DNA from: Burkholderiaceae bacterium
GTDB lineage: Bacteria > Pseudomonadota > Gammaproteobacteria > Burkholderiales > Burkholderiaceae
Direction: 5' to 3'
Assembly (NCBI GenBank): GCA_028871175.1
Contig: JAGWNU010000021.1
Coordinates: forward strand, 1-33,857
DNA: 33,857 bases
Part shown: positions 1 through 9,093 of the stretch, one piece after another
How the letters are laid out: each line of letters opens with the position of its first letter
How positions within the stretch are numbered: position 1 is the first letter of the stretch
Position numbers and translations under genes: made by a program
The notes under the pieces: generated by a model
The model's input: only the letters and a program-made list of their open reading frames with translations
The model's database searches: none
What the model was told of the DNA's origin: nothing

Positions 1-117
1 GTGATCGACTTCTTGAAGCTGGTCATCAACAAGGAAGGTCAATTCCACATTGACCTGGAAGACGACATCGTCAAAGCGTGCTTGATGTGTCGTGATGGCC
101 AACTGCTGCGCGCCTGA
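1..117 (+). CDS. pntAA: NAD(P) transhydrogenase subunit alpha part 1, C-terminal fragment
   Basis: Only the last 38 codons and the TGA stop are inside the window; the gene begins upstream. The visible tail has the pattern Asp-Asp-Ile-Val followed by Cys-Arg-Asp-Gly, which resembles the C-terminal end of the soluble NAD(H)-binding alpha-1 subunit of split (three-gene) proton-translocating transhydrogenases. The assignment is supported mainly by context: pntAB and pntB lie just downstream on the same strand. The alpha-1 subunit binds NAD(H) and passes hydride to NADP+ bound by PntB, coupled to proton flow through the membrane. The unusual point is that panD, not pntAB, comes next. The GTG at position 1 is an internal codon, not a start. 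Confidence 0.75.
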
Positions 118-149: not shown

Positions 150-515
150 ATGCAACGCGTCATGCTGCGTGCCAAGCTGCACCGCGCCACCGTGACTGAA
201 GCCGACCTGAACTACGAAGGTTCTTGCGGCATCGATGAAGACTTGCTCGACGCTGCCGACATGAAAGAGTTCGAGTACATCGAGCTCTACAACATCAACA
301 ACGGCGAGCGCTTTTCGACCTACGTCATCAAGGCGCCAAGGGGGTCGGGTGTGATTTCCCTCAATGGTGCGGCCGCTCGCCGCGCCCACGTGGGTGATCT
401 GCTGATCATCTGCACCTATGCGCCCATGACCGATGCCGAAGCCTCCAGCTACAAGCCCAAGGTGGTGTTGCTGGATGAGCGCAATGCGATCAAAGAAGTC
501 CGCAAGTTCGATTAA
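150..515 (+). CDS. panD: Aspartate 1-decarboxylase proenzyme
   Basis: PanD is a pyruvoyl enzyme that converts L-aspartate to beta-alanine, the beta-alanine source for pantothenate and coenzyme A. The 121-residue length is normal for the family. The self-cleavage site Gly24-Ser25 is visible (Tyr-Glu-Gly-Ser-Cys-Gly-Ile-Asp); Ser25 becomes the pyruvoyl group. The N-terminal beta-chain with Lys9 and His11, and the Asn-Gly-Ala-Ala-Ala-Arg segment near residues 72-77, are also typical. The start is set by a strong Shine-Dalgarno AAGGAG at 137-142, seven bases before the ATG. The gene begins 32 bases after the pntAA stop and ends 25 bases before pntAB, so it sits inside the transhydrogenase operon and is probably co-transcribed with it. 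That placement is odd, since panD usually lies with panB or panC or alone. Confidence 0.96.
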
Positions 516-540
516 TTCCCATTCATCAGGAGACAACGCG

Positions 541-849
541 ATGGAAGCCATTTCCCACGTCGTCATCAACCTGACCATTTTCGTGCTGGCCATTTATGTG
601 GGCTATCACGTGGTCTGGACGGTGACCCCTGCTCTGCACACCCCGCTGATGGCGGTGACCAATGCCGTGTCGGCCATCGTGATCGTGGGCGCCATGCTGG
701 CGGCCGCGCTGACGGTGACACCGCTGGGCAAGATCATGGGCCTGCTGGCCGTGGCCTTGGCCGCAGTCAACGTGTTCGGTGGCTTTTTGGTCACCCGGCG
801 CATGCTGGAGATGTTCAAGAAGAAGGACAAGAAGGCGGGGGCCAAGTAA
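541..849 (+). CDS. pntAB: NAD(P) transhydrogenase subunit alpha part 2
   Basis: A 102-residue membrane protein corresponding to the alpha-2 subunit of three-gene transhydrogenases. It has about three hydrophobic helices (roughly residues 7-25, 37-55 and 63-82) and a lysine-rich C-terminal tail (Phe-Lys-Lys-Lys-Asp-Lys-Lys), as expected for the part anchoring the complex in the inner membrane beside PntB. The ATG at 541 is preceded by AGGAGA at 528-533, which fixes this start over a longer upstream reading. The TAA stop directly abuts the pntB ATG, so the two subunits are probably translationally linked. The complex makes NADPH from NADH using the proton gradient. Confidence 0.93.
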   Translation: MEAISHVVINLTIFVLAIYVGYHVVWTVTPALHTPLMAVTNAVSAIVIVGAMLAAALTVTPLGKIMGLLAVALAAVNVFGGFLVTRRMLEMFKKKDKKAGAK

Positions 850-2292
850 ATGAGCTTGAATCTGATTGCGCTGTTGTACCTGGTGGCGTCGGTGTGCTTC
901 ATCCAGGCCTTGAAGGGCCTGAGTCACCCTACTACCTCGATTCGCGGCAACGTCTTCGGCATGGTCGGCATGACCATCGCTGTGCTGACCACCGTGGGCT
1001 TGATTCAGGGGCAGGCTGAGCACCTGCATGTCCCGTTTGGGCAAGGCCTGGCTTATGTGCTGGGCGCCTTGGTGGTGGGCGGCAGCGCCGGTGCCATCAT
1101 GGCCAAGCGGGTCGAGATGACCAAGATGCCTGAGCTGGTCGCCTTCATGCACAGCATGATTGGCCTGGCAGCCGTGTTCATTGCGATTGCCGTGGTGGCC
1201 GAGCCATGGGCCTTGCTGCAAGAGGTGGCCAAGGACCAACCGATTCCGGTCGGTAACCGCCTGGAAGTGGCGCTGGGCGCTGCGATTGGTGCCATCACCT
1301 TCTCGGGTTCGGTGATCGCGTTCGGTAAGCTGAGTGGCAAGTACAAGTTCCGCCTGTTCCAGGGTGCGCCCGTGACGTTTGCCGGTCAGCACATGCTGAA
1401 CCTGGTGATGGGGCTGGCTGCCATCGGCTTGATCGGGGCCTTCATGGCCACCCAGAGCCTGGAGGTGTTCCTGGCATTGTGTGCCTTGAGCTTTGTGCTG
1501 GGTGTGCTGATCATCATCCCCATTGGCGGAGCCGACATGCCGGTGGTGGTGTCCATGCTCAACAGCTACTCGGGCTGGGCGGCTGCGGGCATTGGCTTCT
1601 CGCTGAACAACTCGATGCTGATCATCGCGGGTTCGCTGGTGGGCAGCTCGGGCGCGATCCTGAGCTACATCATGTGCAAGGCCATGAACCGCTCGTTCTT
1701 CAACGTGATCCTGGGCGGTTTTGGGGGCGACGCAGGCGCAGCTGCCGTTGGCGGTGCGCAACAGCAACGCTCGGTCAAGAGCGGTTCGGCTGACGATGCG
1801 GCCTTCATCCTGATGAACGCCGAATCGGTCATCATCGTGCCGGGCTATGGCCTGGCCGTGGCCCGTGCGCAGCACGCGGTCAAGGAGTTGGCGCACAAGC
1901 TTACCGAAAAGGGCGTGAACGTGAAGTACGCGATTCACCCGGTGGCGGGCCGCATGCCAGGGCACATGAACGTGTTGCTGGCTGAGGCTGAAGTGCCGTA
2001 CGACCAGGTGTTTGAGATGGAAGACATCAACGCCGAGTTCGGTCAGGCTGATGTGGCCATCATCCTGGGTGCCAACGACGTGGTGAACCCCGCCGCGCAC
2101 GTGAAGGGCAGCCCGATCTACGGCATGCCGATCCTGGAGGCCTACAAGGCCAAGACCGTGATCGTGAACAAGCGTTCCATGGCCTCGGGTTACGCTGGCC
2201 TCGACAACGAGTTGTTCTACATGGACAAGACGATGATGGTGTTTGGCGACGCCAAGAAGGTGGTCGAGGATATGGTGAAATCCGTCGAGTAA
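850..2292 (+). CDS. pntB: NAD(P) transhydrogenase subunit beta
   Basis: At 480 residues this has the expected length of PntB. About the first 280 residues are a series of hydrophobic helices forming the proton-conducting membrane domain. The C-terminal third is a soluble NADP(H)-binding domain with a Gly-Tyr-Gly-Leu-Ala-Val-Ala segment, a His-Pro-Val-Ala-Gly-Arg-Met-Pro-Gly-His-Met stretch and the Gly-Ala-Asn-Asp-Val-Val-Asn-Pro motif, all characteristic of the NADP site. It starts on the base after the pntAB stop. Codon choice differs by eye from the phc genes: about one third of leucines in the first 125 codons use TTG, which is almost absent in phcS. A GC-rich hairpin follows the stop. Confidence 0.96.
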   Translation: MSLNLIALLYLVASVCFIQALKGLSHPTTSIRGNVFGMVGMTIAVLTTVGLIQGQAEHLHVPFGQGLAYVLGALVVGGSAGAIMAKRVEMTKMPELVAFMHSMIGLAAVFIAIAVVAEPWALLQEVAKDQPIPVGNRLEVALGAAIGAITFSGSVIAFGKLSGKYKFRLFQGAPVTFAGQHMLNLVMGLAAIGLIGAFMATQSLEVFLALCALSFVLGVLIIIPIGGADMPVVVSMLNSYSGWAAAGIGFSLNNSMLIIAGSLVGSSGAILSYIMCKAMNRSFFNVILGGFGGDAGAAAVGGAQQQRSVKSGSADDAAFILMNAESVIIVPGYGLAVARAQHAVKELAHKLTEKGVNVKYAIHPVAGRMPGHMNVLLAEAEVPYDQVFEMEDINAEFGQADVAIILGANDVVNPAAHVKGSPIYGMPILEAYKAKTVIVNKRSMASGYAGLDNELFYMDKTMMVFGDAKKVVEDMVKSVE

Positions 2293-2442: not shown

Positions 2443-3480
2443 ATGCAACAGGACAGCGCCCTGCCGGTCTATTTCCACCCCACGCTGACGGTGGTGGTCG
2501 ACGACAGCCAATCGTTCGTGGAAAGCCTCGGGTTCCAGATGGACCCGTCGCGCGCGCTATTGGCCTTCAATGACCCGGAAGAGGCGCTGGGGTGGCTGCG
2601 CCAGTGGCATTCTCTGCGCATGCCGGGCTTTCTGCCGGTACGCGTCACGCATGATGATCTGACCTTCTCAACCGAGCGCCGCACCATCCAACTCGACGTC
2701 GACCGCGTCTACCGTCAGATTCACGAGGTCAACCGCTTCCTTCAGCCCTCGGTCATCGTGGTGGATTACTCCATGCCACGCATGAATGGGCTGGAGTTCT
2801 GCGCCAAGCTCAAAGATCTGCCGTGCATGACGATCCTGCTCACTGGCATGGCCGACGAGAACATCGCCGTGCAGGGTTTCAACGATGGGCTGATCGACCG
2901 CTACATCAGGAAAGATCATCCGGCCATGGCCGAGCGGCTGAATGCGGAAATCGAAACGCTGCAGGTCCGCTATTTCAGCAATCTGTCGAGCACACTGCGC
3001 GACCTGCTGTCGCGACACTCCTTCAGCTTCCTGTCGGACCCGGCGGTCACGAAGCTCGTGCGAGAGCTCTCTTCCCGCTACCGCTTTATCGAGTATTACC
3101 TCTACCCGCACCCTGCCGGCGTGCTCCTGCTCACGGCCGACGGGCGCGCCACGCTCATGGTCATCGAGACCAACGCGAGCATGCTCACGCACCTGGAGAA
3201 CGCCGAGGCCTACAACGCGCCGGAAACGCTGCTCAAGGGGCTGCGCGACAAACAGATCGTGCCGTTCTTCTGGCCGGGCGACGGCATGTACACACCGGCG
3301 TGCGTCGAGTGGGAGCAATATTGCCTGCCCGCCGAAGTCTGTCAGGGACGCGAGCCCTACTACTACGCGCTGTTCGACATGCCGAGCCACCTGCTGCCTG
3401 CACAGATCTACAGCTACACCCAATTCCTCGCCAACTACAAGCAGGATCCGGACTCGCTCACCGGCCGCAAGTTGCGCTGA
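2443..3480 (+). CDS. Response regulator with interrupted receiver domain and unassigned output domain
   Basis: A 345-residue soluble protein. The receiver fold is recognisable: acidic pair Asp20-Asp21, phosphoacceptor Asp108 in Val-Val-Asp-Tyr-Ser-Met-Pro-Arg-Met-Asn-Gly, switch Thr134, and Lys157. The distance between the acidic pair and Asp108 is about 87 residues instead of about 40, so some 45 extra residues are inserted near residues 52-98. The C-terminal half (about 165-345) is no DNA-binding, GGDEF, HD or kinase domain that I recognise; it contains an aromatic Glu-Tyr-Tyr-Leu-Tyr-Pro stretch followed by a beta-rich segment. Overall size and layout recall the Legionella regulator LqsR, but that is inference. 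It lies upstream of phcB on the same strand, separated by 638 bases. No strong ribosome site precedes the ATG, so the start is less certain than the rest. Confidence 0.85.
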   Translation: MQQDSALPVYFHPTLTVVVDDSQSFVESLGFQMDPSRALLAFNDPEEALGWLRQWHSLRMPGFLPVRVTHDDLTFSTERRTIQLDVDRVYRQIHEVNRFLQPSVIVVDYSMPRMNGLEFCAKLKDLPCMTILLTGMADENIAVQGFNDGLIDRYIRKDHPAMAERLNAEIETLQVRYFSNLSSTLRDLLSRHSFSFLSDPAVTKLVRELSSRYRFIEYYLYPHPAGVLLLTADGRATLMVIETNASMLTHLENAEAYNAPETLLKGLRDKQIVPFFWPGDGMYTPACVEWEQYCLPAEVCQGREPYYYALFDMPSHLLPAQIYSYTQFLANYKQDPDSLTGRKLR

Positions 3481-4118: not shown

Positions 4119-5531
4119 GTGTACTCACCCAACCAAATCGATCCGGCGGTCAGCTTCCGCAACTCCCAGGGTCAGCAGGTCCGCGGCACCATCATCACGC
4201 TGCAGCGGCGTGCGCTGGTGATGGAGATCTACAACCCGTATTCGATCGTGCAGGTGAGCGAGGTCCTGTCCGAGCTCGCGATCAAGATGGGAACACGGCA
4301 GGCCTACCTCGGCAAGGCGGTGGTGATCAGCCTGGTGAACACCGGCCTGACAGCCGTCGTGTCACTCACGCTGATCGATGAATGGCGCGAGTTGTCGGAG
4401 GTGGCGGACACCCCGGCATCGGTCGGTGAAGAAGCGCGAACGTTCGTGCAGGAATGGCAGGAGCGTTTCCGCATCCACCGCGACTACCAGATCGTCGTCA
4501 ATGAGATGCGTGCGTTCCTGGCCGAAGTGTCGCGCTGGGTAGAACAGGTGGATCTGTCGAAGACATTGCCGCGCGAAGACAACAAGCTGCGCATGGATGT
4601 CTTCCAGGAGCTGGCCGAGCCCATCATGCTTAAGCTCAAGGGCTACATGGACGGGCTGGAATCGGAAGCGGGCAAGGTCGAGGCGGAGCTTGCACCCGCG
4701 CACCGCACGTTCGCGCAAGCCGCCCTGCATCCGCTGCTGCTGCGCGCGCCGTTCATCTATCGCACGTACACCAAGCCACTGGGCTACGCGGGCGATTATG
4801 AGATGGTCAACCAGATCCTCTCCGACCCACGCGAAGGCCCGAATACCTACTTCCAGATCGTCAACGCCGCCTTCCTGCGCACCGACGTCGCCGAGGCGCA
4901 CCGCAACCGGATCGACATTCTCGTGCAGTATCTGAGCGACCTTGCCGCGCAAGCCAAGGCTGCCGGGCGCACGTTCAGGGTACTCAATGTGGGCTGCGGC
5001 CCGGCGGTAGAGATCCAGCGCTTTATCCAGGAACATCCGGAGCCCGCGTTGCTATCGTTCGAACTGGTGGACTTCAGCGAGGAAACACTCGACTACACCC
5101 GCGAACAGATGCGCCGCGCGATGGACCGCGCACGCAAGACCGTGACCGTCGATTTCGTCCACGAATCGGTGCATCAATTGCTCAAGCGCCGTATCACCCC
5201 CGACAGCCCGCAGGCCGGCGATTGCGATGCGGTGTATTGCGCGGGGCTGTTTGACTACCTCTCCAACAAGGTCTGCCAGCGCCTGCTGGCCTACTTTGCT
5301 TCGCGCACGCGCCAGGGCGGGGCCATTCTGGCAACCAATGTTCACAGCAACAACCCCATGCGCTTCGTGATGGAACACGTGCTCGAATGGTATCTGGTCT
5401 ACCGTGACGAACCGCTGATGGCCGAACTGCTCCCGGAAGACTCGCGCGATGCGCGGATCTATACGGACGTGACGGGTGTCAATGTCTTCGCTCAGGCCAA
5501 GGTGGCGCGGTCCACCGCAACCGCCGCCTGA
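4119..5531 (+). CDS. phcB: PhcB, SAM-dependent methyltransferase making the 3-hydroxy fatty acid methyl ester signal
   Basis: A 470-residue protein with a class I SAM-binding core in its C-terminal half: motif I Leu-Asn-Val-Gly-Cys-Gly-Pro-Ala near residues 289-296, followed by an acidic residue after the second strand (Asp318). In Ralstonia and Cupriavidus, PhcB methylates a 3-hydroxy fatty acid to produce the diffusible quorum signal (methyl 3-hydroxypalmitate or 3-hydroxymyristate). The signal type cannot be read from sequence. About the first 90 residues form a separate beta-rich domain ending in Leu-Ile-Asp-Glu-Trp, somewhat PilZ-like but without the RxxxR c-di-GMP motif. A helical middle region holds the segment Pro-Leu-Gly-Tyr-Ala-Gly-Asp-Tyr-Glu near 220-228. 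The start is a GTG with a weak ribosome site, which may limit translation. phcS begins 20 bases downstream, and the four-gene order identifies the locus. Confidence 0.92.
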   Translation: MYSPNQIDPAVSFRNSQGQQVRGTIITLQRRALVMEIYNPYSIVQVSEVLSELAIKMGTRQAYLGKAVVISLVNTGLTAVVSLTLIDEWRELSEVADTPASVGEEARTFVQEWQERFRIHRDYQIVVNEMRAFLAEVSRWVEQVDLSKTLPREDNKLRMDVFQELAEPIMLKLKGYMDGLESEAGKVEAELAPAHRTFAQAALHPLLLRAPFIYRTYTKPLGYAGDYEMVNQILSDPREGPNTYFQIVNAAFLRTDVAEAHRNRIDILVQYLSDLAAQAKAAGRTFRVLNVGCGPAVEIQRFIQEHPEPALLSFELVDFSEETLDYTREQMRRAMDRARKTVTVDFVHESVHQLLKRRITPDSPQAGDCDAVYCAGLFDYLSNKVCQRLLAYFASRTRQGGAILATNVHSNNPMRFVMEHVLEWYLVYRDEPLMAELLPEDSRDARIYTDVTGVNVFAQAKVARSTATAA

Positions 5532-5551
5532 TCGGCCGCCCGGGAACACGC

Positions 5552-6880
5552 ATGGAGCCCATCATTCACCGCGGATACCAGGCCGAGCTTTCGCAGTTCC
5601 GGCTGGCCTTCAGCCGCATGGCCGCCGTCACCGGCATCGTGCTGGTGCTGGCGGGCGTCGGTCTTGACTACGGCATGTATCCGGACAAGCTGTGGCTGTT
5701 CGGTTCGCTGCGCGTGATCACCTCGCTGATCATGCTGGTCGCGCTGTTCGTGCTGTACACGCGGTGGGGCGAAGAACATGTGCAGAGCCTGACGTTCTTC
5801 TGGCTGATCTGCCCGCAGATCATGATTTCCTGGATGATCTACGACACGGAGGGCGCCAGCTCGCCGTATTACTCGGGGCTGAACCTGGCGATCTACGCGG
5901 TGGGCATGGTCATGCCGATCGGCTTTCTGCAAGCCGTGCTGTTCGGTACGTGCACGTACATCTTCTGGGTCATCGCGTGCACGCTGCATCCTGGCGGTAT
6001 CCAGTCGCGCGAGATCTTCATCGTCCACTCGCTGTTCATTCTGTTCTCGATTGCCACCAGCGCGCTGTACACGTACTTCAACGAGCGGGGACGCTTCCAG
6101 CTCTTCCGTCTGAAGGAAGAGGTCGCGCAGAAGAACGAGCAGTTGGCGCAGACCAATCAGAACCTCACCGACATCAAGGGCCAGCTTCTGCAGCAGGAGA
6201 AGATGGCCGCCATCGGCACGCTGTCCGCTGGATTGCTGCACGAGATCAACAACCCGGTCAATTTCTGCCTGATGGCGATTTCCGTGGCGCAGGAAGAGCC
6301 TGCCGCCAAGGCCAGCCCGATGCTGCTCGAATGCCTGGCCGATGCCAAGGAAGGCATGCAGCGCGTACAGCACATCGTGTCTGACCTGAAGACCTTCGCC
6401 TACCGCAGCCCCGAGAAGGGCGAGGCCGATGCGCCGTTCCTGGCTGAGAAGGCCATCGATTCCGCCATCCGCCTGACCAGCCACGAACTGCGCGGCGTGA
6501 CGGTCGAACGCAAGTTGCCGCCCGACACGCTCGTACGGGGCGACGAGGCGGCCATCATCGGCGTGCTGATCAATCTGCTGTCGAATGCGGCGCTGGCCAT
6601 GCACAAAGTGCAGCGTGCGAACCCCCGTATCGAGATCGCCGCAGACTGGATCGACCATCGGCTGCATGTCGTCGTGACGGACAATGGACCGGGCATCCCC
6701 GAGAAGAATCTCACACGCGTATTCGAGCCGTTCTTCACCACGCGCGAAGTCGGCAAGGGATTGGGGCTGGGCCTGTCGATCAGCTACAGCGTGATCCAGC
6801 GCCATGGCGGCACGCTCGCCGTCACGAGCCAGGAAGGCGAATGGGCGCGCTTCACGTTCGACCTGCCGCGCGCGGAGTAA
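5552..6880 (+). CDS. phcS: PhcS, membrane sensor histidine kinase
   Basis: A 442-residue kinase. The N-terminal part (about 20-175) has roughly five to six hydrophobic helices and no large periplasmic domain, fitting perception of a lipid-like ester in the membrane. A short coiled coil (about 183-215) leads to the H-box His-Glu-Ile-Asn-Asn-Pro with phosphoacceptor His230, the position I recall as the phosphorylation site of R. solanacearum PhcS. The ATPase domain has the N-box around Asn345, Asp-Asn-Gly-Pro-Gly-Ile at 377-382, Phe-Phe-Thr-Thr near 394-397, and a glycine-rich lid Gly-Lys-Gly-Leu-Gly-Leu-Gly at 401-407. It follows phcB by 20 bases and precedes phcR by 7, so it is co-transcribed. 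The kinase looks complete. Confidence 0.94.
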   Translation: MEPIIHRGYQAELSQFRLAFSRMAAVTGIVLVLAGVGLDYGMYPDKLWLFGSLRVITSLIMLVALFVLYTRWGEEHVQSLTFFWLICPQIMISWMIYDTEGASSPYYSGLNLAIYAVGMVMPIGFLQAVLFGTCTYIFWVIACTLHPGGIQSREIFIVHSLFILFSIATSALYTYFNERGRFQLFRLKEEVAQKNEQLAQTNQNLTDIKGQLLQQEKMAAIGTLSAGLLHEINNPVNFCLMAISVAQEEPAAKASPMLLECLADAKEGMQRVQHIVSDLKTFAYRSPEKGEADAPFLAEKAIDSAIRLTSHELRGVTVERKLPPDTLVRGDEAAIIGVLINLLSNAALAMHKVQRANPRIEIAADWIDHRLHVVVTDNGPGIPEKNLTRVFEPFFTTREVGKGLGLGLSISYSVIQRHGGTLAVTSQEGEWARFTFDLPRAE

Positions 6881-6887
6881 GCGGGAT

Positions 6888-7997
6888 ATGGACACCAAGC
6901 CGGACACCGTCACCATCCTCTACGTCGACGATGAGGCGCAAGCCTGCAAGTGGTTCGCCCGTACGTTTGGCGCCGGGTATGAGGTACTGACGGCCAACAG
7001 CGTCGCGCAGGCGCAGGCCGTCCTGCGCGACGCACATGAGCGCATCAGCGTCGTGCTGACCGACTTCCGCATGCCGGGCGGCAACGGCACCGAACTGCTG
7101 CGCTTCATCGACGCGCAGTACGGCGACATCGCAACCATTCTCGTGACCGCCTATGCCGACAAGGACCTGCTGATCCAGGCCGTCAACACCGGGCGCGTGT
7201 TCAAGATTCTGGAGAAGCCCTACCAGCCGGACGATGTACGCCGCTCGTTGCAGGAGGCGCTGGCGCTGCGCCAGGACCGCCTGCTGCGCACGCAGCGGCT
7301 CATGGCGATCGACGAGACGCTGGCCTTTCTTGCCCACGAGCTGAACACGCCGTTGGCAGCCATCTCGAACTTCGCGCGCGGCATCCGCATGCGCGTGGAT
7401 CAGGCTGAGCCGACGCCGGAAGCGCTGCCGGAAATCGGCCGTGCCGCCGACCGCGTGCAGGACAACGCGCGGTATTGCCTATCGGTCATCGCCACGTTCC
7501 TGAACTCCGTGCGCAATACCTACGGCAAGCCCGGCACAGCGGCGACGCCCAACAGCGCGGGCGGCCTCATCCGCTCGCTGCTCGATACCTATCCATTCAC
7601 GAACGCGCAGCGCGAGTGGGTGTCGTACCGCGTGGAAGACGATTTTCCGATCCAGACGTTGCCCAACTGCGTGATGCTCGTACTGTCGTCCCTGACCAGC
7701 AACGCGTTGCGCGCGCTGCGCGATACGAGCGCGCCGCGGCTCGAGATCATCGCGGCACACACGACTGAAGCGGCGGGCGGCGGCCGCCACATGATCTGTA
7801 TTCAGGACAACGGCCCCGGCATCGCCCCGGACGTCCTTGCGCGGCTGACCATCGACCCCGTGACCACGCGCGCCGAAGAAGGCGGCAACGGCATGGGCAT
7901 GATTTTTTGTACGCGGATCATGCAATCGTTCGGGGGAGCGATTGCGATTGACTCCGCACCTAGCGCAGGCACGCGCGTGACTTTGACGTTCCCATGA
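6888..7997 (+). CDS. phcR: PhcR, receiver and histidine-kinase-like hybrid regulator
   Basis: A 369-residue soluble protein. The receiver covers about residues 7-125, with acidic Asp14-Asp15, phosphoacceptor Asp59 (Leu-Thr-Asp-Phe-Arg-Met-Pro), Thr88 and Lys110-Pro111. A kinase-like half follows: H-box His150-Glu-Leu-Asn-Thr-Pro, N-box Asn272, Asp-Asn-Gly-Pro-Gly-Ile at 307-312 and a Gly-Gly-Asn-Gly-Met-Gly lid at 332-337. There is no DNA-binding domain. In the Phc pathway PhcS signals through PhcR toward control of PhcA activity. I chose the ATG at 6888, seven bases after phcS, because a longer reading from 6804 would overlap the end of phcS and adds residues of no domain. Whether the kinase half is catalytically active cannot be told, but its key residues are present. 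Confidence 0.92.
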   Translation: MDTKPDTVTILYVDDEAQACKWFARTFGAGYEVLTANSVAQAQAVLRDAHERISVVLTDFRMPGGNGTELLRFIDAQYGDIATILVTAYADKDLLIQAVNTGRVFKILEKPYQPDDVRRSLQEALALRQDRLLRTQRLMAIDETLAFLAHELNTPLAAISNFARGIRMRVDQAEPTPEALPEIGRAADRVQDNARYCLSVIATFLNSVRNTYGKPGTAATPNSAGGLIRSLLDTYPFTNAQREWVSYRVEDDFPIQTLPNCVMLVLSSLTSNALRALRDTSAPRLEIIAAHTTEAAGGGRHMICIQDNGPGIAPDVLARLTIDPVTTRAEEGGNGMGMIFCTRIMQSFGGAIAIDSAPSAGTRVTLTFP

Positions 7998-8085: not shown

Positions 8086-9093
8086 ATGACCAATTCCGGG
8101 GGCAATGAGCCCAAGATCCTGTACGTGGACGACGAGACACTGGCGCTGACTTATTTCGGCCGTGCCATCGGTTCACTGGCGCCGGTCGTCACCGCCACCT
8201 CGGTCGAAGAAGGCAAACGCATGCTCGACCAGCACGCTGCCACGCTGGGTGTGCTCGTGTCGGACCAGCGCATGCCCGGCGAACTCGGTAACGAGCTGCT
8301 GCGCTATGCCCGCGAGCGCTACCCGCACCTGGTGCGCATCCTGACCACGGCTTACTCGGAAATCGAAGACACGGTGGAAGCGGTCAACCAGGGGCAGATC
8401 CACCGCTACATCAAGAAGCCGTGGGACATCACCGCGCTGCGCGTGGAGCTGAAGCAGGCGCTTGAATTCTCCGACCTGCGCCGTGAGCGCGACGCCCTGC
8501 TGCGCGAGAAGATGACCGTGCGACAGAGCCAGACGCTCACGCATCGGATCGGCGCGCTGCAGACGCTGTACCTCGCGGTATCCGGCCTGTCTTCGTTCAG
8601 CGCCGTCAACGACTACCTGCGCGCGGCGGCGGCGGTCGGGCTGCACGCCGTGGCGCAGCCGGACTGGGCGATGAAGGATTACACCGAGCTCGTCGGCGAG
8701 GAAAGCCTGCGCACCGGTGAATTCAGCCACGCGGTGCGACAGGCGTACGAGGATGTGTCGTCGCGCTTCGACGCGTGGCCGGTCGCGCAGGCGCTGGACG
8801 CGCTGGCCGAAGTCCTGAACGGCAAGGTGTCGCCGGCCGGTGGCGATGCGGCGGCGGTCATCGACCTCCCCACGCTGACGGAATTCCTTGAAACCGCATC
8901 GACGCACAAGGTGTCAGAAGCGCATGCCAAGTGGTTCGCCTTCCTGTTGTGGCTGGACGGCAAGGGCTGGTCGCTCACGGCCGAGCGCGACGGCGCGACC
9001 CTCAGACTGCGCCTCCTCGACAACCAGACACAGCTCACGCCGGATCAGTTGGTCGCGTGGATGGACCACTTTCAGGATCAGCAGGTCGCCTGA
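8086..9093 (+). CDS. phcQ: PhcQ, response regulator with non-DNA-binding C-terminal half
   Basis: A 335-residue protein with a complete receiver at about 10-125: Asp15-Asp16, phosphoacceptor Asp60 (Val-Ser-Asp-Gln-Arg-Met-Pro), Thr87-Thr88 and Lys111-Pro112-Trp. A helical linker (about 128-150) follows. The remaining 180 residues have a degenerate histidine-kinase-like feel (dimerisation helices, then a small beta-rich part) but no recognisable catalytic H, N or G boxes. PhcQ is the fourth gene of the phc signalling operon and is reported to act with PhcR in controlling phc-regulated genes in R. solanacearum. It lies 88 bases after phcR, the largest gap in the operon. A hairpin after the stop probably ends the transcript. 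Confidence 0.9.
   Translation: MTNSGGNEPKILYVDDETLALTYFGRAIGSLAPVVTATSVEEGKRMLDQHAATLGVLVSDQRMPGELGNELLRYARERYPHLVRILTTAYSEIEDTVEAVNQGQIHRYIKKPWDITALRVELKQALEFSDLRRERDALLREKMTVRQSQTLTHRIGALQTLYLAVSGLSSFSAVNDYLRAAAAVGLHAVAQPDWAMKDYTELVGEESLRTGEFSHAVRQAYEDVSSRFDAWPVAQALDALAEVLNGKVSPAGGDAAAVIDLPTLTEFLETASTHKVSEAHAKWFAFLLWLDGKGWSLTAERDGATLRLRLLDNQTQLTPDQLVAWMDHFQDQQVA

Follow-up and report, generated by a model that had tools for sequence, protein, structure and literature searches.

The gene at positions 2443 to 3480 of the window (the whole stretch of 33,857 nucleotides that was analysed) is, by full-length sequence homology, phcX, an ortholog of LqsR, and the kinase of the adjacent Phc cluster whose core groups with the LqsS kinases in profile and tree comparisons is PhcR, not PhcS. 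Membership of PhcX in the LqsR family, an intact predicted phosphorylation site in its receiver and a recurrent linkage to phc genes are established by sequence comparison. We propose, with about even confidence, that PhcX works as a soluble phospho-switch and that its D108 is phosphorylated by a kinase of the LqsS family, which in Ralstonia would most likely be the kinase domain of PhcR. The gene, its kinship with LqsR and the link between the Phc and Lqs systems are already known and were published in 2023 in mBio (PMC10653808). Added here is sequence evidence that names a specific pair, the PhcR kinase and PhcX; new are three changes of phc linkage on the family tree, the retention of phcX without LqsA and LqsS, the kinship between PhcR and LqsS and the co-retention of the PhcR kinase with phcX. 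The features are as follows, in window coordinates except for the last line, which refers to contig C62 of the window's genome.

850-2292, + strand: pntB-like gene upstream of phcX
2443..3480, + strand: phcX, LqsR-family response regulator, 345 aa, ATG start (open reading frame; phmmer and family profile; name and function according to the accessible text of PMC10653808)
2482..2604, + strand: first part of the predicted receiver, about residues 14-54, with the acidic pair D20/D21 (alignment)
2605..2742, + strand: predicted insertion in the receiver, about residues 55-100, ending in R98-F99, 43 residues more than in PhcQ (alignment)
2743..2976, + strand: second part of the predicted receiver, about residues 101-178, with D108, T134 and K157 (Pfam, alignment)
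2974..3477, + strand: LqsR-type output domain, E217 invariant and Y219 in 56/57 members (profile A5)
4119..5531, + strand: phcB, signal methyltransferase (name according to the published operon order)
5552..6880, + strand: phcS, sensor kinase with a kinase core outside the LqsS group (LqsS profile, tree, G2-box motif)
6804..7997, + strand: phcR, receiver plus C-terminal kinase core grouping with LqsS; candidate donor for PhcX (LqsS profile, tree)
8086..9093, + strand: phcQ, receiver and a C-terminal region without a Pfam match
L166:3734-5119, + strand: orphan LqsS-type membrane kinase on contig C62 (LqsS profile)

The genes follow one another in the order pntB-like, phcX, phcB, phcS, phcR and phcQ, all on the + strand of the window, and phcX thus lies beside phcB on the same strand, as the original prediction had it. 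The phcX reading frame is intact over 345 codons. Its relatives in a collection of named genomes were 11 Ralstonia-type loci with 92-96% identity (two of R. pickettii and one of R. soli) and, as a twelfth related locus, that of Cupriavidus sp. BIS7 with 65% identity; by these identities the window is from a Ralstonia, probably one outside the plant-pathogen complex. The tRNA and Rfam scans gave no match, and a promoter and terminator scan gave no signal clearly above chance.

Several other features of the locus were observed. The flank with panD, pntAB and pntB (window 150-2292) is merely 72-84% identical to the 11 other Ralstonia loci, while phcX, which begins 150 bp downstream of it, is 93-96% identical to them; given this abrupt boundary, the upstream flank has perhaps been replaced. 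The C-terminal region of PhcQ without a Pfam match (window 8086-9093) comprises about 200 residues. In 4 of the 11 Ralstonia loci compared (L036, L038, L039 and L075), PhcB and PhcS diverge strongly over window 4824-6166, with identities of 58-60% for the second half of PhcB and 45-51% for the sensor half of PhcS, whereas the PhcS kinase core remains at 92-96% and PhcR, PhcQ and PhcX are likewise conserved. It looks as if a signal/sensor cassette had been swapped, with the border of the cassette inside phcS, and two PhcB/PhcS types have been reported for R. solanacearum (PMC8578825).

The layout of PhcX was said to recall LqsR, and this likeness extends over nearly the whole protein: residues 3-329 matched the LqsR structure (PDB 6SY9) in phmmer at E 8.7e-49, and a profile of 26 family members matched the same entry at 5.6e-128 over positions 1-335 of 339. 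Another 39 PDB matches of the family profile at E ≤0.001 begin in the receiver and mostly stop there. PhcX and LqsR thus share full-length homology, the split receiver and the output domain. The neighbours differ, those of the present gene being phcBSRQ: lqsA and lqsS do not occur in the window, and neither LqsA above the cut-off nor a full-length LqsS was found in the 90%-complete genome. Therefore, the claim made here is one of the LqsR protein family, not of membership in an Lqs system. PhcX also resembles PhcR and PhcQ in being a receiver protein without a recognised DNA-binding domain, but both of these lack the insertion and differ from PhcX in the first receiver helix and the C-terminal parts.

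In the accessible text of PMC10653808, phcX (RSc2734) is described as an LqsR ortholog directly upstream of phcBSRQ in the Ralstonia solanacearum species complex. Its deletion altered about 16% of genes, PhcX and PhcA acted in opposite directions on 81.4% of the genes they share, phcX was transcribed independently of phcBSRQ (RT-PCR) and phc expression was unaltered in the phcX mutant. The survey of the same paper included 660 Ralstonia genomes, and the link to phc was regarded as gradual in Ralstonia evolution. Elsewhere in the literature, PhcX or RSc2734 appears in a 2026 review that cites this paper (PMC13052101) and in a 2019 selection scan. The present copy is like RSc2734 in its family and in its place directly upstream of phcBSRQ, with a gap of about 600 bp; it differs in that it is probably from outside the species complex, its closest named rows being other Ralstonia, R. 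pickettii included. The suggestion of a regulator type common to the Phc and Lqs circuits is therefore right about LqsR but not about the regulator having been overlooked, since the gene received its name, and was studied by deletion, in 2023. Similarly, the description of the gene as an extra Phc component is supported by its conserved adjacency to phcB, but a role within the cascade is not, given the independent transcription, the unchanged phc expression and the regulon that mostly runs opposite to that of PhcA (PMC10653808).

The only Pfam match in PhcX is Response_reg at residues 94-158, which is the second half of the receiver. The receiver had been described as split by a 45-residue insertion between the acidic pair and Asp108; the insertion was found, at a length of 43 residues counted against PhcQ, as the spacing between D21 and D108 is 86 residues in PhcX vs 43 in PhcQ. 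This spacing is 82-87 in 37/37 phc- or lqs-linked rows of the alignment and 75-92 in the other 20. The residues D20, D21, D108, T134 and K157 are identical in 57/57 aligned LqsR-family members, and P13, R98, F99, M111, G116, G135, F146, N147 and E217 are also invariant in all 57 rows. Given that it is closed by the invariant R98-F99, the inserted segment counts as a conserved receiver element. In its first receiver helix, PhcX resembles LqsR and differs from PhcR and PhcQ.

No Pfam family was found for PhcX after about residue 178, which agrees with the original statement that the C-terminal 180 residues match no known output domain. The output-domain profile A5 matched 6SY9 in the PDB at 1e-50, with the next match at E 1.2; the output domain is thus that of LqsR, and an unrelated family was not matched convincingly. 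Among 26 LqsR-family members searched against Pfam at E up to 10, no family occurred in more than 2/26, and GGDEF families were absent from the matches. A PleD/GGDEF-like fold is stated for the output domain in the accessible text of PMC10653808. A model computed with AlphaFold from a 12-sequence alignment was poor (mean pLDDT 44.6). PhcX is the only protein of the window's genome that the output-domain profile matched. By these searches the domain is, as far as known, confined to the LqsR family, and it probably acts by binding another protein or a nucleotide.

The gene was found in 16/16 genomes of the genus at 92-100% identity (in G013 from residue 83 only, at the start of a contig), and the reading frame is therefore not a chance one. 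In all of these Ralstonia, phcB adjoins phcX on the same strand (the window and 15/15 further loci, with the contig of G013 starting inside phcX). A survey of 299 genomes of the bacterial family gave an LqsR-family match (E 1e-20) in 109 and phcB (E 1e-60) in 66. In the genus g3, taken as Cupriavidus from its one named match at 65% (39 genomes with both genes), phcX and phcB lie 10.1-27.0 kb apart in 33/33 genomes with both on one contig, phcB always being upstream of phcX on the opposite strand; in the other 6/39, the two genes are on different contigs. Conservation beside phcB across Ralstonia and Cupriavidus, which had been put forward as a check, thus takes the form of adjacency in the former and of proximity within 10-27 kb in the latter. 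In the g3 loci that were read, phcX lies between pntB and an rlmK-like gene with no phc gene between, and in Ralstonia the pntB-to-rlmK-like gap of this layout is filled by the phc operon. Other layouts are phcB-S-R-Q-X in tandem in G019, where phcX follows phcQ by 4 bp and a second copy lies beside lqsA and lqsS, and a phcX divergent from phcB in three f37 genomes. Near phcB, no LqsR-family gene was found in the g21 (n=9) and g25 (n=1) genomes that have phcB (10/10, the nearest being 86 kb away in G212) or in the f49 genomes that have it (3/3). Hydrogenophaga is listed as a third phc-linked genus in PMC10653808. It should be noted that in the g3 genomes G265 and G295 (L214 and L215) the phcB match is divided into two partial ones that overlap, and that several genomes of 2.0-2.4 Mb carry 3-5 LqsR-family genes (5 matches in G797; 3 each in G338, G753 and G818).

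The LqsR-family tree was built from 57 of 98 distinct sequences (omitted were fragments and near-copies, along with several paralogs that are short or very distant) and rooted on short paralogs. On this tree the phc label requires three changes, each forced by starred branches, with gains and losses being indistinguishable in the count. A single clade of all phc-linked rows was rejected (p 3e-6), also without the G019 copy (p 2e-47); thus, either the genes of f37 and of Ralstonia/Cupriavidus were captured separately, or some lineages reverted to lqs. We considered the phc-linked copy of G019 as a separate third capture, which is not required because one clade of G019, Ralstonia and Cupriavidus was not rejected (p 0.18). 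Five of the 16 Ralstonia genomes have LqsA above the cut-off, and the same 5 have a full-length LqsS, with lqsS beside lqsA on a contig other than that of phcX and with no lqsR adjoining. In the remaining 11/16, which include the 90%-complete genome of the window, neither LqsA above the cut-off nor full-length LqsS was found, although all have phcX. Thus, phcX outlives its presumed ancestral kinase, and another kinase must feed PhcX, if PhcX is phosphorylated.

For the search for such a kinase, LqsS was defined as the kinases beside LqsR-family genes, and a core profile was built from 13 of them. The profile had 31 matches in the window's genome. The best was the orphan kinase on contig C62 (216.7 bits) and the second was PhcR (122.1 bits, phosphoacceptor region included); PhcS reached 80.9 bits in the ATPase region only, and the remaining kinases had ≤80.1 bits. 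A kinase tree was then based on 76 cores, comprising 12 PhcR (one of them the G212 paralog at L074), 22 LqsS, 8 LqsS2, 12 PhcS and 22 other kinases; the last are kinases of the window's genome found via the LqsS profile, so that the outsiders represent the kinases matched by that profile. The duplicate loci L175-L177, the 852-aa kinase of L074, one weak match of L110, cores of <200 aa and L180, L185, L187, L196 and L201 were omitted. The PhcR, LqsS and LqsS2 rows form one 42-row clade (support 100/99) with PhcS and the 22 others outside, and placing PhcR and PhcS in one clade gave p 0.015. By the tree tests PhcR may stand beside or inside LqsS, as LqsS and LqsS2 join with a support of 89/88 and a grouping of PhcR with LqsS2 alone was not rejected (p 0.089).

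Two motifs follow the same division. The G2-box GxGxGxxFC occurs in 16/22 LqsS, 8/8 LqsS2 and 10/12 PhcR, and the YPF motif in 18/22, 4/8 and 6/12, respectively; both are absent from PhcS (0/12) and the other kinases (0/22). Homology between the sensor parts of PhcS and LqsS is not claimed, given an hhalign probability of 0.8%. Among 67 LqsR-family genes in chosen loci of at least 7 kb, a kinase of the LqsS/PhcR type (at least 95 bits, a threshold fixed after the PhcR scores of 98-127 were known) lies within 5 kb of 36/46 phc-unlinked and 15/21 phc-linked genes; the 6 linked genes without one are g3 loci, in which phcR is farther away.

The PhcR kinase also tends to accompany phcX. It was matched with at least 190 bits in 28/28 phcX-linked clusters (in L214 the match begins past the H-box). 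Of 13 phcX-unlinked clusters, 6 have kept it (3 of g21 and 3 of f49) and 4 of g21 have a remnant; no PhcR kinase was found in 2 further g21 clusters and no PhcR at all in the g25 cluster. These truncated forms are seen in L118, L120 and L206-L209 (g21), where PhcR is cut down to the receiver and, in some cases, a remnant of the kinase, and L119 (g25) is the cluster without PhcR. On the PhcB tree, which included 37/41 clusters (L032 and L040 as near-copies and L214 and L215 with phcB split in two were omitted), the clusters of g21 and g25 fall together with those of g3, which suggests that they were transferred away from phcX. The loss of the PhcR kinase amounts to only two events on this tree, and an independent-pairs test of phcX linkage against the PhcR kinase had no power, with 3 pairs where a p of 0.05 would take at least six informative ones.

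A glycine at H+15 is present in 19/22 LqsS rows and in no LqsS2 row. PhcR has it in 27/27 readable linked clusters and in 0/6 unlinked ones, a mark that was spotted post hoc on the first set (8/8 linked clusters of the tree set, followed by 19/19 readable of 20 further clusters) and that is repeated mostly among near kin. In G212, the PhcR of the phc cluster has a kinase remnant only, and the gene of a full-length PhcR-like protein, 50% identical and also with the glycine, lies at a distance of 252 bp from one of the LqsR family; at this place (L074:7866-12852), 86 kb from the phc cluster, these two genes stand together with an LqsS-like kinase of 852 aa. The three f49 genomes retain the PhcR kinase without a linked phcX. 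They have distant LqsR-family genes elsewhere, 2/4 of them beside an LqsS-like kinase, and are therefore weaker counter-examples than they seem. In g21, whether the LqsR-family gene is of the long or the short kind did not track with retention of the PhcR kinase and was dropped as a predictor.

General two-component biology has transmitters of the LqsS type donating phosphate to receivers of the LqsR type. In the proposed mechanism, the PhcB signal would act on PhcS, PhcS on the PhcR receiver, and the PhcR kinase, under the control of its own receiver, on D108 of PhcX; this PhcR-PhcX branch would run beside the path from PhcS through PhcQ to PhcA. The accessible texts of PMC11960443 and PMC8578825 present the PhcR receiver as thought to be fed by PhcS, and in the former PhcS/PhcK are said to need a cognate regulator not yet identified. 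As deletion of phcR changed quorum-sensing phenotypes little (PMC8578825) and the effect of phcX deletion is large, PhcR is not the sole input of PhcX, if phosphorylation matters for all of these effects. The orphan kinase on C62 would be a second candidate donor, and its input, or a dephosphorylation of PhcX by PhcR, could reconcile the mild with the strong phenotype. The contrast between these phenotypes counts against a simple chain. Counting against PhcR as the donor, the C62 kinase is the more LqsS-like of the two by profile score, and phcX is transcribed independently of phcBSRQ (PMC10653808); the small number of kinase losses counts against the argument from co-retention. A broader version, in which PhcR is a receiver-controlled LqsS-type kinase with PhcX as its substrate and phc clusters acquired the module on more than one occasion, we hold somewhat more tentatively.

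The C62 kinase also leads to a different reading, to which we assign perhaps one chance in four: it would be an LqsS2 kinase that feeds PhcX, its own short LqsR-family partner being missing in Ralstonia, and the phc linkage would be incidental to phosphorylation. Besides being the best LqsS-profile match of the genome, this kinase has 49-52% full-length identity to seven LqsS2-group kinases that lie beside short LqsR paralogs in related genomes. Its counterpart in another Ralstonia is 62% identical, the 9.5-kb loci that surround the two Ralstonia copies showed no receiver gene, and a short LqsR-family partner was not found in the window's genome, in which PhcX is the only match for the LqsR-type output domain, as would fit such a donor. 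However, this reading leaves the recurrent phc linkage unexplained, and the C62 kinase has ATEM at H+13..16 vs [AV]RG[ILM] in linked PhcR and in several of the LqsS kinases partnered with the PhcX clade. The C62 kinase is possibly Shk (RSp0220), described in PMC12993560; 7 segments are published for Shk, a crude hydropathy count of the C62 kinase found 4, and a plasmid search for this comparison returned, among the matches listed, 11 records from Burkholderia, Paraburkholderia and Cupriavidus only.

Direct phosphorylation of PhcX by PhcS, as originally supposed, would fit the adjacency of the genes and the model in the accessible text of PMC11960443, in which PhcS feeds several soluble receivers and a further, not yet identified one for phcA. 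We regard it as unlikely, since PhcS falls outside the LqsS group by profile, tree and G2-box, its sensor part has no detectable homology to that of LqsS, and the LqsR-like first receiver helix of PhcX sets it apart from PhcR and PhcQ; as judged from these comparisons, PhcS looks less likely than PhcR as the donor. Still less probable is a chance position beside phc, with PhcX as an LqsR relic that continues to serve Lqs or functions without phosphorylation. The lqsA-lqsS pairs without an adjoining lqsR in 5/16 Ralstonia and the transcription of phcX apart from phc (PMC10653808) would agree with a relic, but the gene is kept in the 11/16 genomes without LqsA and LqsS, its phospho-residues are invariant (57/57), the phc linkage involves three tree changes and several layouts, and the deletion phenotype is large (PMC10653808).

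In the accessible text of PMC10653808, no connection is drawn between the PhcR kinase and LqsS, and the pairing of PhcR with PhcX was not found in print by the searches of the open literature, subscription papers such as the LqsR structure paper being outside this scope. The one other paper listed there as naming both PhcR and LqsS was a Legionella host-model review. If the broader version, with PhcR as a receiver-controlled kinase for PhcX, is true, the Phc and Lqs circuits would share one kinase-regulator module that consists of an LqsS-type transmitter, placed under a receiver in PhcR, and an LqsR-type output, PhcX would supply the output that PhcR has been missing, and the PhcR kinase would decay once phcR and phcX are separated. 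Such a module would also account for the recruitment of the same kind of regulator by two different signal systems.
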